This document shows positions 12,959 to 18,816 of a stretch of 64,000 bases of DNA, piece after piece. The notes below the pieces were generated by a model. It saw only the letters and a program-made list of their open reading frames with translations. It ran no database searches and was not told the DNA's origin. How positions within the stretch are numbered: the stretch's first letter is position 1; each line of letters starts with the position of its first letter. The stretch covers positions 383,583 through 447,582 of the forward strand of contig NZ_KB900536.1 of the NCBI RefSeq assembly GCF_000378965.1, in the 5' to 3' direction. This DNA is from Thioalkalivibrio thiocyanodenitrificans ARhD 1. GTDB lineage: Bacteria > Pseudomonadota > Gammaproteobacteria > Ectothiorhodospirales > Ectothiorhodospiraceae. A program made the position numbers and the translations under genes.

Positions 12959-14173
12959 ATGGCGGGCCAGCGGATCGATTTTCCCGGAGCGGACGAACAC
13001 ACACTGGCGGCGAGGCTGGATACGCCGCCGGGAGAACCGCGGGCCTGGGCGCTTTTCGCGCATTGTTTCACCTGCGGAAAGGATATCCGCGCGGCGAGTC
13101 GAATCGCGGCCGCGCTGACCGAGCGCGGCATCGCCACCCTGCGCTTCGATTTTACGGGGCTCGGGGCGAGTGAGGGAGAATTCGCCAATACCGGTTTCAG
13201 TTCCAATGTCGCGGACCTTCTGGCCGCGGCGCGTTTCATGCGCGAAAGCGGACGCCCGGTCTCCATTCTCATCGGGCACAGCCTCGGGGGCACGGCGGTC
13301 CTGGCCGCCGCCGGCGAGTTGCCGGAGTGCGCCGCGGTCGGGGTGATCGGTGCCCCGTTCGATCCGGAGCACGTGCTCGATCATTTTTCGGACAAGCTGG
13401 AGGTCATCGAATCCGAGGGGGAGGCCACCGTCACATTGGCTGGACGCCAGTTCCGGATCCGCCGTCAGTTCCTGGAAGATGCGCGCGACCAGAACCAGGC
13501 CAGGCACATTCGTCAGCTGCAGCGTCCCCTGCTGGTCATGCATTCCCCTGTGGATGCCGTGGTGGACGTGGACAATGCCCGGCGAATCTTCGAGCATGCC
13601 AGGCACCCAAAGAGCTACGTCTCACTGGACGATGCGGACCATCTGCTCAGCAAGCCCGAGGATGCGGAGTACGCGGCCGGGGTGATCGCCGCGTGGGCGG
13701 CCCGTTACCTGCCGGACCGGGACGATCCGGCCGATGAGGCCGGCGGGGATGGTGGCGTGACGGTGGAGGAACTAACGCCGGACGGCCTTGCACAACAGGT
13801 GCGGGTGGGCCGTCACCGGCTGTTTGCCGACGAGCCGGAGAGTGCCGGCGGTGCTGACATGGGTCCGGGCCCTTACGACTACCTGCTGGCCGGACTCGGG
13901 GCATGCACCTCCATGACGCTGCGCATGTACGCCCGGCGCAAGGGGCTGGACCTGACCCGTGTGCAGGTGAGCCTGACGCACGACAGGATTCACGCCAGGG
14001 ATTGCGAGGCGTGCGAGACGCAAACCGGCCGGCTCGACCTGATCACCCGGCGCATCATCCTGGAAGGCGAACTCTCTGATGCGGAGCGCAAGCGGTTGCT
14101 GGAGATTGCCGACAAGTGCCCGGTGCATCGCACGCTCCACGGTGAGGTCGAGATCCGGACGCTCCCCGGTTGA
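12959..14173 (+). CDS. Bifunctional alpha/beta hydrolase / OsmC-family protein
   Basis: The protein (404 residues) fuses two modules. Residues 1 to about 255 form an alpha/beta hydrolase with nucleophile elbow GHSLGG, an acid in MHSPVDAVVD and histidine in DDADHLL. The C-terminal part, from about 265, is an OsmC domain with the redox cysteine in GLGACTSMTLRMYARRKG and the second in DKCPVHRTL. OsmC proteins reduce organic hydroperoxides with cysteine thiols. This fusion is a known family. It lies 51 bases upstream of the SelD fusion gene on the same strand, so co-transcription is likely, and it may handle peroxides or activated thiol/selenol esters; that link is inference. The ribosome binding site GCGGAGGGG precedes the ATG. 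Confidence 0.9.
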   Translation: MAGQRIDFPGADEHTLAARLDTPPGEPRAWALFAHCFTCGKDIRAASRIAAALTERGIATLRFDFTGLGASEGEFANTGFSSNVADLLAAARFMRESGRPVSILIGHSLGGTAVLAAAGELPECAAVGVIGAPFDPEHVLDHFSDKLEVIESEGEATVTLAGRQFRIRRQFLEDARDQNQARHIRQLQRPLLVMHSPVDAVVDVDNARRIFEHARHPKSYVSLDDADHLLSKPEDAEYAAGVIAAWAARYLPDRDDPADEAGGDGGVTVEELTPDGLAQQVRVGRHRLFADEPESAGGADMGPGPYDYLLAGLGACTSMTLRMYARRKGLDLTRVQVSLTHDRIHARDCEACETQTGRLDLITRRIILEGELSDAERKRLLEIADKCPVHRTLHGEVEIRTLPG

Positions 14174-14224
14174 GGTTGCTCGGGCCTGAATCCACGCATT
14201 ACCTGTAACCAGAGAGAATTGTCC

Positions 14225-16495
14225 ATGCAGAAACCGGACCGGCCGGTTCTAAGGGATATAGTGCTGATCGGGGGAGGCCACAGCCATGTGGGGGTCCTCA
14301 AGCGTTTCGGCATGAAGCCGGTGCCCGGCGTGCGTCTGACGGTGATCTGTCGGGATACCCACACGCCGTATTCCGGCATGCTGCCGGGGTACGTGGCCGG
14401 ACACTACGATTTCGACGACATCCATATCGATCTGAGCCGGCTGGCGGAGTTCGCCGGCGCCCGTTTCTACCGGGATGAGGCCGTGGGCCTGGACCGGTCC
14501 GCACGGACCGTGCTTTGCCGGGAAAGACCGCCCGTGCCCTACGACAAGCTGTCCATCAATATCGGATCCACGCCGCAACTGGGGCACGTGACAGGTGCGC
14601 ACGAGCACGTGGTCCCCGTAAAGCCCATTCACCGCTTCAATGACCGCTGGCAGGCATTGCTGCACCGGGTGAAGGAACACCCCGGCAGGAGACGCATCGC
14701 AGTGGTTGGCGCGGGCGCCGGCGGCGTCGAACTGGCGCTGGCGATGCAGTACCGGCTGCGCAGGGAGCTTTCCGCCCAGGGGCGTGACCCCGGGGAACTG
14801 GAGTTCCATCTGTTCAGCCGAAGTGCCGACATTCTGCCCACGCACAATGCCCGTGTGCGCGGGGTGTTCGAGCAGGTCCTGGCCGAGCGGGGTGTGGTCC
14901 TGCATACGGCCGCGGAGGTGGAGCAGGTGGGTGACGGATGCCTGCGCACCGTCGAATCCGGTACCTTCGACGCCGATGAGGTCGTCTGGATCACGCGGGC
15001 GGGCGGGGCGCGCTGGCTTGGGGATACCGGGCTCGAACTGGATGACGACGGCTTCATTCGGGTCACCGATACCTTGCAGACCGTCACGGATCCAGAGATT
15101 TTTGCCGCGGGGGATATTGCCTCGATGGTCAACCATCCGCGGGAGAAGGCCGGTGTGTTTGCCGTGCGTCAGGCTCGGCCGCTGGCGGACAACCTGAGGC
15201 GCGCGGTCACCGGGCGGGCACTGCGGCCCTATCGGCCCCAGCGTCACTGGCTTGCCCTGATCAGCACCGGAGAACGGTACGCGGTGGCGTCCCGCGGCCC
15301 CATCGGATTCAAGGGGGCGTGGGTGTGGCGCTGGAAGGACCGGATCGATCGCCGGTTCATGGCCCGGTTCAATGATCTCCCGCCCATGGACACCGACAGG
15401 GACGATGCATGGCATTCGGTGCGGCTGGACGGGGAGGAGGCGGTGCAGGCCATCTCCGCGGTGGCCATGCGCTGCGGGGGTTGCGGCGCGAAGGTGGGCG
15501 CATCCGTACTGTCCCGCACCCTTGGCCTGCTCACGCCGGTGGATCGTGACGATGTGCTCGTGGGTCTCCACGCGCCGGATGATGCCGCCGTGCTGCGCGT
15601 GCCGGAGGGCAAGGCCCTGGTGCAGACCGTGGACTTCTTCCGTGCGTTCATCGAAGACCCGTACCTGTTCGGCAAGATCGCGGCCAATCATGCCCTGGGC
15701 GATGTGTTTGCCATGGGCGCGGAGGCACAGTCGGCCACGGCGATTGCCACCGTGCCCACGGGGCTGGAGTCCAAGATAGAGGACGTAGTGCTCCAGATGA
15801 TGTCGGGGGCCATCGAAATCCTCAACGATGCGAACTGCGCGCTGGTGGGCGGCCACACCGGGGAGGGCCGGGAACTGGCCCTGGGGTTTGCCGTGAACGG
15901 GCTGGTCGACGAGGACGCCCTCCTGCGCAAGGGGGGGATGCGCGCGGGTGACGTGTTGCTGCTCACCAAACCCATCGGGACAGGCACGTTGTTCGCCGCG
16001 CACGCGAGGCTGGCCGCCCGGGGCCGCTGGATCGATTCCGCCCTCGCCTCCATGATCCAGTCAAACCGGCAGGCTGCCGCGTGTCTGCGAGAACACGGCG
16101 CCACGGCGTGTACGGACATCACCGGATTCGGGTTGCTGGGACATCTGGTCGAGATGACGCGGCCGTCCGGCGTTGACGCCGAACTGGATCTCACCGCGCT
16201 GCCGCTCCTGGAGGGCGCGCAGGAGACCGTGGCCCGGGGGATCATGAGTTCCCTGCAGCCCGCCAACGTGCGTCTGAGCCGGGCGCTTCGCAACCAGGCG
16301 GACATGGCGGACCATCCCCGTTACCCGCTGGTGTTCGATCCCCAGACCGCAGGCGGCCTGCTGGCCAGTGTGCCCGCGGATCGGGCGGAAGCCTGCGTGC
16401 AGGCGTTGCGGGCGCTGGGGTATTCCGACGCGGCCGTCATTGGCCGGGTGCTCGCCCGGAGCGATGCCCTGGAACCCATCGTCCTCAATCCATGA
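14225..16495 (+). CDS. selD: Selenophosphate synthetase fused to FAD/NAD-dependent oxidoreductase (SelD; SenC role)
   Basis: The 756-residue protein starts with a pyridine-nucleotide-disulfide oxidoreductase-like domain (FAD motif LIGGGHSHVGVL near residue 12, second dinucleotide fold VVGAGAGGVELALA near 165). It continues after about residue 410 as selenide, water dikinase. The catalytic pair C420 and K423 (GGCGAKVG) corresponds to Cys17 and Lys20 of E. coli SelD, so it uses Cys, not selenocysteine. SelD makes selenophosphate from selenide and ATP, and the N-terminal domain may supply reduced selenium. I preferred ATG 14225 over TTG 14219, because AGAGAG lies 8 bases before the ATG. With senB and senA next door this is the SenC component; use in tRNA selenation or selenoproteins is also possible. 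Confidence 0.94.
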   Translation: MQKPDRPVLRDIVLIGGGHSHVGVLKRFGMKPVPGVRLTVICRDTHTPYSGMLPGYVAGHYDFDDIHIDLSRLAEFAGARFYRDEAVGLDRSARTVLCRERPPVPYDKLSINIGSTPQLGHVTGAHEHVVPVKPIHRFNDRWQALLHRVKEHPGRRRIAVVGAGAGGVELALAMQYRLRRELSAQGRDPGELEFHLFSRSADILPTHNARVRGVFEQVLAERGVVLHTAAEVEQVGDGCLRTVESGTFDADEVVWITRAGGARWLGDTGLELDDDGFIRVTDTLQTVTDPEIFAAGDIASMVNHPREKAGVFAVRQARPLADNLRRAVTGRALRPYRPQRHWLALISTGERYAVASRGPIGFKGAWVWRWKDRIDRRFMARFNDLPPMDTDRDDAWHSVRLDGEEAVQAISAVAMRCGGCGAKVGASVLSRTLGLLTPVDRDDVLVGLHAPDDAAVLRVPEGKALVQTVDFFRAFIEDPYLFGKIAANHALGDVFAMGAEAQSATAIATVPTGLESKIEDVVLQMMSGAIEILNDANCALVGGHTGEGRELALGFAVNGLVDEDALLRKGGMRAGDVLLLTKPIGTGTLFAAHARLAARGRWIDSALASMIQSNRQAAACLREHGATACTDITGFGLLGHLVEMTRPSGVDAELDLTALPLLEGAQETVARGIMSSLQPANVRLSRALRNQADMADHPRYPLVFDPQTAGGLLASVPADRAEACVQALRALGYSDAAVIGRVLARSDALEPIVLNP

Positions 16496-16503
16496 CCGGC
16501 ACG

Positions 16504-17457
16504 TCAGGACAAATGCCCGACCACGTTCTCAAGCGCAGCCTTCTCCTCCTCCGGCCGAAAGGCGGGGGCACGGGCCTCGCAGCTCCGGCGCAGGGACTCC
16601 ACATAGTCCGGATCGCCCTCGGCGCGCAGCAGGCGTTTCCGCAGTGCCGCCGTGTCACCCACCGGATAATATCCCGGGTAGTCTTCGCCCAGCAGGCCGA
16701 TATTGCCCGGGATGTCGGAGGCGATGACGGGCAGGCCCGCCACGCACGCTTCGGAGACCACGTTGGCGCCGCCCTCCATGATGGAACTTATCACCATGAG
16801 CCGCGCCCGGGCCATCAGGCGGCGTACCTGCCAGTGAGGCACTTCGCCGCGCCAGACGAAGCGCGGATTGATGCGGGTTTCCTGCAGCGCGGCGGCTTCC
16901 CATTCGCTGTCATGGGCGCGGCCCATGAGAACGATCCGCAGCCGCGAACCCGCCGGCAGATCACGCACGGCATAGGCCGGACGCAGCGAATCCTTTTCCT
17001 CGCGAAGATGTCCGGCCACACAGACATCGAAGCGGGATCTGACCGGGGGCAGGCGCCGGGGCAGGGGATCGGCGGACTGCAGGACGGTATGCAACCGGGT
17101 ACGGAAACGGGCCGGAATGTCTTCATGGACCCGGTCATGGAGGCCGATCAGGGCGTCCGCCCGATCCATGCTTGCCAGAGTGGTCTCGGCGTGGGAATAC
17201 TGGAACCGGTAAATGTCCGTTCCCGTCAGCACGACGATCAGCGGCCGGTGCGGATGGCGGTCACGGAAGGCACGGACGGCGTCCGCGCTGCGCCATGCAT
17301 GCAATGCGATCATCATCCCGGCATCGCGCCCGTCATAGGTCGTGGAGACGCGGACCCGATGACCGAGATCGCGCAGGAACTTCGCCCAGCGGGTGGCCGT
17401 GGCCCGGTTGCCCGAGCGTGTGCCGGGCCTGGCCGGCGTGATCAGTGCGATGTCCAT
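16504..17457 (-). CDS. senB: Selenosugar synthase SenB (glycosyltransferase-like, TIGR04348 type)
   Basis: This 317-residue GT-B glycosyltransferase-like protein begins MDIALITPARPGTRSGNRATA and ends with the donor-binding stretch SSIMEGGANVVSEACVAGLPVIAS. I recognise it as the TIGR04348 family, characterised as SenB, which uses selenophosphate and a UDP-sugar to make a selenosugar for selenoneine synthesis. Its neighbours support this: SelD ends 8 bases away, convergent, and the SenA homologue starts 36 bases away, divergent. An ordinary glycosyltransferase would not usually sit between these genes. The start at ATG 17457 matches the family N-terminus; the frame continues upstream to 17913 only by chance, across the senA start. 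Confidence 0.88.
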   Translation of the reverse strand: MDIALITPARPGTRSGNRATATRWAKFLRDLGHRVRVSTTYDGRDAGMMIALHAWRSADAVRAFRDRHPHRPLIVVLTGTDIYRFQYSHAETTLASMDRADALIGLHDRVHEDIPARFRTRLHTVLQSADPLPRRLPPVRSRFDVCVAGHLREEKDSLRPAYAVRDLPAGSRLRIVLMGRAHDSEWEAAALQETRINPRFVWRGEVPHWQVRRLMARARLMVISSIMEGGANVVSEACVAGLPVIASDIPGNIGLLGEDYPGYYPVGDTAALRKRLLRAEGDPDYVESLRRSCEARAPAFRPEEEKAALENVVGHLS

Positions 17458-17493
17458 GTGACTGTTGCCATTCGACCGGGGGTTTGAATTCCA

Positions 17494-18816
17494 ATGGATG
17501 TGCCTGCCACCCATCGCGTGCCTGCAGATCACCTCATCGAGATGCTGGGCGATGCCCGGAAGCGGACGCTCGCCCTGACCCGGGATCTGACCGGCGAGCA
17601 GGCGCTCGGGCCCAAGCTTAACATTGTGAATCCTCCCCTGTGGGAAGTGGGCCACGTGGGCTTCTTTCACGATCACTTCGCCCTGCGGACGCTTTACGGC
17701 CTGGACTACCGGCATCCCGATGCCGAAGCGCTCTACGATTCCGGCGGCATAGAGCATGATGCGCGCTGGGGTCTGCCGCTGCCGGACTGGGAAGACACGC
17801 TCGATTATCTGCGCACGGTCCAGGATGCCATGATTGAACGGCTGCCCGACGGGCTGGCCAGCGAGGCGCAGAGTTACGTCTACCAGCTCACCACCTTCCA
17901 CGAAGACATGCACGGAGAGGCCTTTGCCTATACACGGCAGACGCTCGCGTACCCTCCTCCGGACATGGGTTCAATTTCGGGCGTGTCGCCGGCTCAACAC
18001 GCCGGTCCCCTGGACGGTGACGTACACATCCCGGGCTGCATCCATGAGCTGGGTTCCGACGAGACCGTGCCCTTTCGATTTGACAACGAAAAGGGAGTCC
18101 ATGCGGTGGATGTGCCGGCCTTCAGCATCGCCAGAGCACCGGTCACCAACGAGGCGTTTCGTGCCTTCGTGGAGGACGGGGGTTACCGGCGCCGTGAGTT
18201 CTGGAGCGAGGAGGGCTGGGCGTGGCGCAGCCGGGCGGGGCTCGACGCCCCGGTGTACTGGCACCATGCCGACGGGCACTGGCAGGTGCGCTGGTTTGAC
18301 CGCTGGCTGACCCTGCCGCCCTGCCAGCCCGTGAGCCATGTCAGCGCTTACGAAGCCGATGCCTATTGCCGTTGGGCGGGCCGCCGGCTGCCCACCGAGG
18401 CCGAGTGGGAGGTCGCGGCCAGCCGGGTACCGGCCGGCGACGGCCGGGGGCTGCTGCCCGGCAAGCGGCGCTTTCCCTGGGGCGACACCATGGCTGGCCG
18501 GGTACCGGCCAATCTGGACGGTGACCGGCTCGGATGCGTGGACGTCGCTGCCTTCCCCGAGGGCGACAGCCCCCTGGGATGCCGGCAGATGCTGGGCAAC
18601 GTCTGGCAATGGACAGCCTCCGTCTTCGGGCCGTTTCCCGGCTTCAAGGCCGATCTCTACGCGGACTACTCCGCCCCGTGGTTCGCGGAGCAGCGGCGGG
18701 TATTGCGCGGCGGCGGATGGGCAACCCGGAGCCGGTTGATTCACAACGGCCATCGCAATTTCTTCACCCCGGATCGCAACGACATCATCGCCGGTTTTCG
18801 CACCTGTGCCCTCTGA
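17494..18816 (+). CDS. senA: Selenoneine synthase SenA (EgtB-like non-heme iron enzyme)
   Basis: The 440-residue protein has an N-terminal DinB-like bundle with an iron facial triad candidate H54, H136 and H140 (HEDMH followed by GE), and a C-terminal formylglycine-generating-enzyme-like domain (from about 175, ending LGNVWQWTASVF, RVLRGGGW and GFRTCAL). This is the EgtB/OvoA/SenA architecture, enzymes that form a C-S or C-Se bond on the hercynine imidazole with O2. Adjacency to SenB and SelD points to SenA rather than EgtB: EgtB clusters usually carry egtD or egtA/egtC, and none is here. Hercynine would have to come from an egtD elsewhere or from uptake. The start at ATG 17494 has GGGGG about 10 bases upstream. 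Confidence 0.85.
   Translation: MDVPATHRVPADHLIEMLGDARKRTLALTRDLTGEQALGPKLNIVNPPLWEVGHVGFFHDHFALRTLYGLDYRHPDAEALYDSGGIEHDARWGLPLPDWEDTLDYLRTVQDAMIERLPDGLASEAQSYVYQLTTFHEDMHGEAFAYTRQTLAYPPPDMGSISGVSPAQHAGPLDGDVHIPGCIHELGSDETVPFRFDNEKGVHAVDVPAFSIARAPVTNEAFRAFVEDGGYRRREFWSEEGWAWRSRAGLDAPVYWHHADGHWQVRWFDRWLTLPPCQPVSHVSAYEADAYCRWAGRRLPTEAEWEVAASRVPAGDGRGLLPGKRRFPWGDTMAGRVPANLDGDRLGCVDVAAFPEGDSPLGCRQMLGNVWQWTASVFGPFPGFKADLYADYSAPWFAEQRRVLRGGGWATRSRLIHNGHRNFFTPDRNDIIAGFRTCAL

Follow-up and report, generated by a model that had tools for sequence, protein, structure and literature searches.

We identified a set of three genes at 14219-18816 of the window, the 64,000-nucleotide stretch of Thioalkalivibrio thiocyanodenitrificans ARhD 1 DNA analysed here, and this set is very likely a selenoneine biosynthesis locus. 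It consists of an oxidoreductase-SelD fusion (+), SenB (-) and SenA (+) (Table 1). An earlier note on this DNA had read SelD, SenB and SenA, lying side by side, as the core set that makes selenoneine; all three are present above the curated cut-offs, and the comparisons described below support this reading at the level of sequence. The gene identities and residues are thus predicted, and the chemistry is transferred by analogy from the characterised enzymes of Variovorax paradoxus. The layout and the gene set are of a known kind, and the unusual part is genomic, namely the co-occurrence with SelA and the single SelD.

In the proposed pathway, the fused oxidoreductase-SelD would use reduced selenium and ATP to form selenophosphate, from which SenB would make a selenosugar with a UDP-sugar. 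SenA, an iron enzyme, would couple the selenosugar to hercynine, and the resulting selenoxide would fall apart and then be reduced to selenoneine. Hercynine would be supplied by EgtD at an ergothioneine cluster elsewhere in the genome, and the SelD of the sen locus would, in addition, provide SelA with selenophosphate for selenocysteine.

Table 1. Features of the predicted selenoneine locus and of the selenocysteine island (window positions unless marked as genome)
Feature	Position	Strand	Basis
Alpha/beta hydrolase-OsmC fusion	12959-14173	+	PF12146 and PF02566, above cut-off
Oxidoreductase (TIGR03169)-SelD fusion, predicted selenophosphate synthase in the SenC role	14219-16495	+	Curated models
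SenB, predicted selenosugar synthase (GT-B)	16504-17457	-	TIGR04348
senB/senA start-codon gap, divergent genes	17458-17493	.	36 bp, read directly
SenA, predicted selenoneine synthase (DinB_2 + FGE-sulfatase domains)	17494-18816	+	NF041186
Selenocysteine island: fdhG-UGA, fdhE, selA, selB, tRNA-Sec	genome C1:1075825-1084968 (L208, L071)

Gene identities and layout

The profile search of the three proteins that the earlier note had called for gave 497.6 bits for SenA with NF041186 (cut-off 420), 416.3 bits for SenB with TIGR04348 (cut-off 300) and 302.7 bits for SelD with TIGR00476 (cut-off 125). The fusion protein also scored 524 bits with TIGR03169 (cut-off 310), and its identification as fusion_not_SelD (TIGR04369) was rejected at 482 bits against a cut-off of 700. 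Its listed start is a TTG, and an ATG lies two codons further in. The open frame of SenB extends over 16504-17913 (-); because the family match begins only at residue 155, the start codon likely lies at 17455-17457. The SelD and SenB genes converge, with their stop codons 8 bp apart. The scan of the locus found two promoter-like sites against 1.0 expected and two terminator-like sites against 3.0 expected.

The strands given earlier, selD forward, senB reverse and senA forward, were confirmed. To place this arrangement, relative loci were collected by a SenB alignment scan of a named genome collection, from which the best 80 of 581 confirmed candidates were taken; together with 22 loci from a class search these made 102, and merging of six duplicates left 96 distinct loci. 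Anchor distances of -140 for the window and for one relative arose from SenB open frames that extend too far, and these two values were excluded. Among the matches listed, a SenA-family neighbour was found in 72 of the 96 loci and a SelD neighbour in 74, the latter fused in 71 cases. The senA gene lies upstream of senB on the opposite strand in 70 of these 72 loci, both exceptions being OvsA loci. Of the 74 SelD genes, again among the matches listed, 60 are convergent with SenB, 13 are upstream and share the strand of SenA, and one shares that of SenB. Since 70/72 and 60/74 relatives match it, the interleaved opposite-strand order is ordinary for sen loci. SenB itself exceeded the cut-off in 23 of 369 genomes of the sampled class; three further members of the organism's family that were sampled lack it.

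All four distinct matches of SenB in the PDB comparison were SenB-type chains, and the protein passed the SenB-specific model, which goes against a grouping with unrelated GT-B enzymes, the outcome that the earlier note had named as evidence against its reading. According to excerpts of PMC10891094, V. paradoxus SenB uses N20, T23 and E231 for the sugar donor, H58, R61, T83, T85 and R155 for the selenophosphate pocket, K158 for Se-P cleavage and E239 for ribose. In an alignment with the crystal sequence, the window SenB has the equivalents of N20, T23, H58, R61, T83, T85, R155, K158, E231 and E239, and these ten residues are invariant across 23 aligned SenBs. The sen cluster of V. paradoxus DSM 30034 (SenA, SenB, SenC) has the same three enzymes, with agreement in the SenB residues, the SenA histidines and the Y/N/F residues of SenA described below. 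It differs from the window in that the window SelD is fused to an oxidoreductase. The window SenB is 39% identical to the SenB of G107 (L018/L048), whose SenA groups with V. paradoxus SenA. In L048, which was compared in place of the V. paradoxus locus itself, SelD is unfused and lies on the SenB strand, whereas the window SelD converges on SenB.

The hydrolase-OsmC fusion upstream, which the earlier note had counted as a possible extra member, is unlinked in relatives. Full-length relatives were found in six of the 26 SenB-positive genomes searched, at the sen locus in the window's genome only; in the five others the relative was on a different contig than SenB/SenA, except in G044, where SenB is about 160 kb away. 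Among the matches listed for the 96 loci, the same neighbourhood occurred only in L072, a MAG with a 95%-identical SenB. We judge from these gene positions that the fusion is a neighbour and would not be a conserved pathway member.

SenA, OvsA and EgtB

The Fe-type histidines H54, H136 and H140, which the earlier note had listed for SenA, are present in the window protein and likewise in all 77 SenA-type rows compared. The comparison with solved structures raised an alternative that the earlier note had not named, namely OvsA, the enzyme that forms ovoselenol from histidine. In that case the SenA-like protein would put selenium onto histidine, not hercynine, towards ovoselenol. In the PDB comparison its best match was indeed OvsA (325.6 bits), followed by EgtB (260.8) and V. 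paradoxus SenA (231.5). The SenA model does not decide the matter: of 18 OvsA-clade proteins scored (L158-L174, L176), 16 exceed its cut-off of 420 bits, among them the OvsA of Vreelandella (Halomonas) utahensis (L166) at 427.2 bits, and the other two, at 419.1 and 410.8 bits, are just below it, as is L075 at 411.1 bits. Because most OvsA-clade proteins scored pass the cut-off, the NCBIfam SenA equivalog model fails to separate selenoneine synthases from ovoselenol synthases.

The two deposited OvsA sequences, 8u41 and 8ux5, differ at three aligned positions, with M/Q/A in the former and Y/N/F in the latter. Since 8u41 matches V. utahensis locus L074, with zero branch length between them in the quick tree, and carries M/Q/A, we take 8ux5 to be an engineered form. 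M/Q/A was found in 21 of the 22 OvsA rows, the remaining one having gaps. Of the 77 SenA rows, 73 have Y at the first position; the second is N in 63 or T in 11, and the third is Y in 43 or F in 31. In EgtB rows the three are Y, N and mostly F. The window SenA has Y392/N422/F423, as does V. paradoxus SenA, and not the M/Q/A of OvsA. As Y/N/F is the EgtB pattern too, it speaks for hercynine and not for selenium. Of 22 discriminating columns picked for separating SenA rows from OvsA rows, which include these positions, 21 hold the SenA-type residue in the window protein, and A285 is of neither type. V. paradoxus SenA has the SenA type at only 12 of its 20 lettered columns and the OvsA type at 2, and the columns therefore fit the window's wider group better than the proven enzyme.

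Two trees were made from these proteins. The quick tree contained 123 rows; the EgtB candidate L199 was omitted, with stops in the region read. EgtB fell outside the Sen/Ovs group (SH-aLRT 95), OvsA formed a group of 22 rows (SH-aLRT 100), and the window SenA and V. paradoxus SenA were in a SenA group of 77 rows (SH-aLRT 84). In this tree, joining of the window protein and its twin in L072 to OvsA was not rejected by the AU test (p 0.40). The careful tree used 56 of the 123 rows with eight EgtBs, and the genome's own EgtB-like protein was left out. Here the window SenA was in a ten-row subclade with Aquisalimonas and Halomonas (100/100), and OvsA (ten rows, 100/100) was nested in a different SenA group (100/98); joining of the window protein to OvsA was rejected, modestly (p 0.035). 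V. paradoxus SenA was on a long branch, and the deeper order, including the place of that branch, was without resolution. In the quick tree, the SenAs of L127 and L139, MAGs labelled Planctomycetota and Acidobacteria, were nested among proteobacterial ones, by horizontal transfer or binning error.

The genome and the locus layout bear on the OvsA alternative as well. The V. utahensis ovoselenol locus (OvsA PDB 8u41) shares with the window SenB, the SelD fusion and a paralogous selenoxide synthase, but its OvsA has M/Q/A at the three positions where the window SenA has Y/N/F. In L074 and L075 SenB and OvsA are on one strand, whereas SenB and SenA are divergent in the window. The partner methyltransferase of OvsA (TIGR04345, OvoA-C-terminal type) adjoins OvsA in the Halomonas locus L075 (292.7 bits), but the best match in the window's genome reached 34.6 bits against a cut-off of 170, and EgtD is present there. 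From the residues, the careful tree and the absence of this methyltransferase above the cut-off in the genome, we reject an OvsA identity, which we regard as very improbable even with the PDB match, the permissive SenA cut-off and the quick-tree AU test in its favour. Still more improbable, to the point of being nearly dismissed, is a role as a second EgtB, with ergothioneine made from a sulfur donor. The enzyme belongs to the same superfamily and scored 313.9 bits with the EgtB model, but this is below the cut-off of 360 while the SenA cut-off is exceeded, and the eight EgtBs were set apart at 100/100 in the careful tree; an EgtB identity was rejected on these cut-offs and the tree. In addition, the gene adjoins SenB and SelD, and an EgtB-like gene already lies beside EgtC/EgtD in the genome. 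The window SenA is separate in the trees, and the grouping with EgtB or OvoA that the earlier note had considered damaging to its reading was not found.

There is also a small chance that the SenB/SenA/SelD set makes another selenium metabolite on another histidine-like acceptor. The window SenA is far from V. paradoxus SenA in sequence and retains a segment missing from it, residues 314-367 (about 54), opposite which four V. paradoxus residues align, and no enzyme of the window's SenA subclade was met in the literature examined. This alternative is, however, unlikely, as the Fe-type histidines and Y/N/F are the same as in V. paradoxus SenA, and EgtD lies within the flanks of six of the 12 relatives that share its subclade, among the matches listed. 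Selenoneine remains the preferred product.

Among the matches listed, 24 of the 96 SenB loci had SenB without a SenA in the flanks, and a new product from such SenB-SelD loci was considered. L080, L114 and L138 were left out of this follow-up, with SenB near the upstream contig end. In all 21 remaining loci a SenA-family match was found outside the flanks, 19 above the cut-off, one at 419.1 bits and one partial at a contig end, and the new product was rejected. In the tree, 16 of the 21 have OvsA-type genes only, three SenA-type and one both; the partial one was left unplaced. Since the genome with both types carries them on the senB contig, at a distance of about 12 kb, "SenA-less" here means merely not within about 8 kb. 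This genome is that of the symbiont G370, in which the OvsA-type and SenA-type genes are about 1.2 kb apart on opposite strands (C4:76968-80756; L176, L154; within L216), and it may make both selenoneine and ovoselenol. In Marinobacter L091 (4793-7799), whose OvsA gene is outside the flanks, a phosphonate-type ABC transporter is divergent from senB. Its binding protein scored 432 bits with TIGR04553, "putative selenate" (cut-off 250), which suggests that a system for selenium uptake is linked with senB-selD; L128 and L095 have ORFs of sizes similar to this transporter set. In Rhodospirillaceae L104 (3083-7982), with SenA also outside the flanks, senB is near an amidohydrolase, a molybdenum hydroxylase and an AllG-like protein, and L130 has similar ORF sizes.

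Hercynine supply and the last step

The earlier note had found egtD outside the window, which stands, and the profile search of the rest of the genome located EgtD at C1:1397347-1398258 (350.4 bits; cut-off 290.9). The genome thus holds a predicted source of hercynine, the lack of which had been named as a reason to doubt the pathway. EgtC is beside EgtD (229.1 bits; cut-off 218.65), together with the EgtB-like gene, which is below both the EgtB cut-off (273.7 against 360) and the SenA cut-off (281.8 against 420). In the quick tree, the EgtB-like protein of this ergothioneine cluster (L070 3315-6367) shared a long branch with an Aquisalimonas protein. Among the matches listed, 22 of the 96 SenB loci have EgtD in the flanks, and all 22 have a SenA-type neighbour; it was absent from the 24 loci whose flanks lack a SenA-family gene and from the three with an OvsA-type gene (L074, L075, L093). 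Because flank lengths differ and the loci are related, this co-occurrence is support and not a test. According to excerpts of PMC10702425 and PMC10903977, the selenoxide breaks down spontaneously before the final reduction, and the absence of an EgtE-type lyase would therefore be no gap.

A single SelD and a selenocysteine island

The catalytic pair of SelD is present at C422/K425 counted from the TTG, which is the C420/K423 of the earlier note counted from the ATG. The CGGC motif contains C419 and C422 (TTG count), and both cysteines were found in 70 of 70 fused SelDs compared, including that of the window. Ndh-SelD fusions described in excerpts of PMC2398784, PMC2432076 and PMC4561486 likewise have an N-terminal NADH-dehydrogenase-like domain and a CxxC in the SelD active site, and the CxxC that PMC2398784 gives for fused SelDs matches the window protein. 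In the oxidoreductase half, the glycine-rich nucleotide-binding motifs are conserved across the 70 fused proteins, and the cysteines only partly (C44 in 42/70, C100 in 56/70). As C44 and C100 are not fully conserved, a cysteine-based mechanism inside this half appears less likely. An earlier genomic study proposed that the Ndh-like domain reduces a selenium compound for SelD (PMC2432076, in excerpt), and this is probably the putative role of the oxidoreductase half here.

This fusion is the only SelD above the cut-off in the genome. Apart from the sen locus, the genome contains a selenocysteine island, in which FdhE (275 bits), SelA (572), SelB (446) and tRNA-Sec are consecutive, just after a formate dehydrogenase (1468 bits). 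The reading frame of the latter contains a single UGA (genome position 1076404), and its sequence context is the expected one, which we take to be that of E. coli FdnG. No selD was found in the island stretch. The best match to SelU in the genome scored 21.1 bits against a cut-off of 219.75. Since the sen-locus fusion is the sole SelD found, it should also feed SelA, and from the gene content we infer that it would be shared between selenoneine and selenocysteine. Excerpts of PMC11448449 describe, in general terms, selenophosphate as serving selenocysteine, selenouridine and selenoneine alike.

Such a combination was rare among the genomes compared. SelA was detected in only one of the 23 SenB-positive genomes, that of the window, three of the other 22 being less than 90% complete. 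In the fetched flanks of the 23 genomes, SelD was fused in 17 (the window's included), unfused in one and absent in five. In excerpts of PMC4561486, a 2015 survey of 223 reference genomes, 26% had SelD and 18% the Sec trait, SelA and/or YbbB occurred in 93% of SelD species, and the extended-SelD genomes all had selenoproteins and the Sec machinery. Unlike these, 22 of the 23 SenB-positive genomes here had no detected SelA, a rough comparison with different samples, related genomes, no class base rate and SelU searched in the window's genome alone. The result suggests that most of the sen-locus SelDs here work without a selenocysteine pathway and that the window's genome is the exception.

We tentatively propose, stopping a little short of calling it probable, that the selenoneine and selenocysteine traits are usually separate in this class and that the window's genome is a rare case in which one sen-locus fused SelD was recruited for both. 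The selD-less island would then depend on the sen locus, and selenophosphate would be divided between an antioxidant and a respiratory enzyme. In the selenoneine and ovoselenol literature, covered through titles and the starts of abstracts, with most subscription journals and the two founding papers outside the scope, no report of this lineage's locus or of a two-trait genome was found.

Because selenoneine-type and ovoselenol-type enzymes both pass the present public SenA cut-off, tallies of proteins annotated as SenA need to be backed by a check of residues such as that made here. The predicted locus adds a selenoneine locus with a fused SelD outside the beta-proteobacteria, the source of the characterised enzymes, and the genome would offer a natural test of how one selenophosphate supply splits between a small molecule and selenoproteins.
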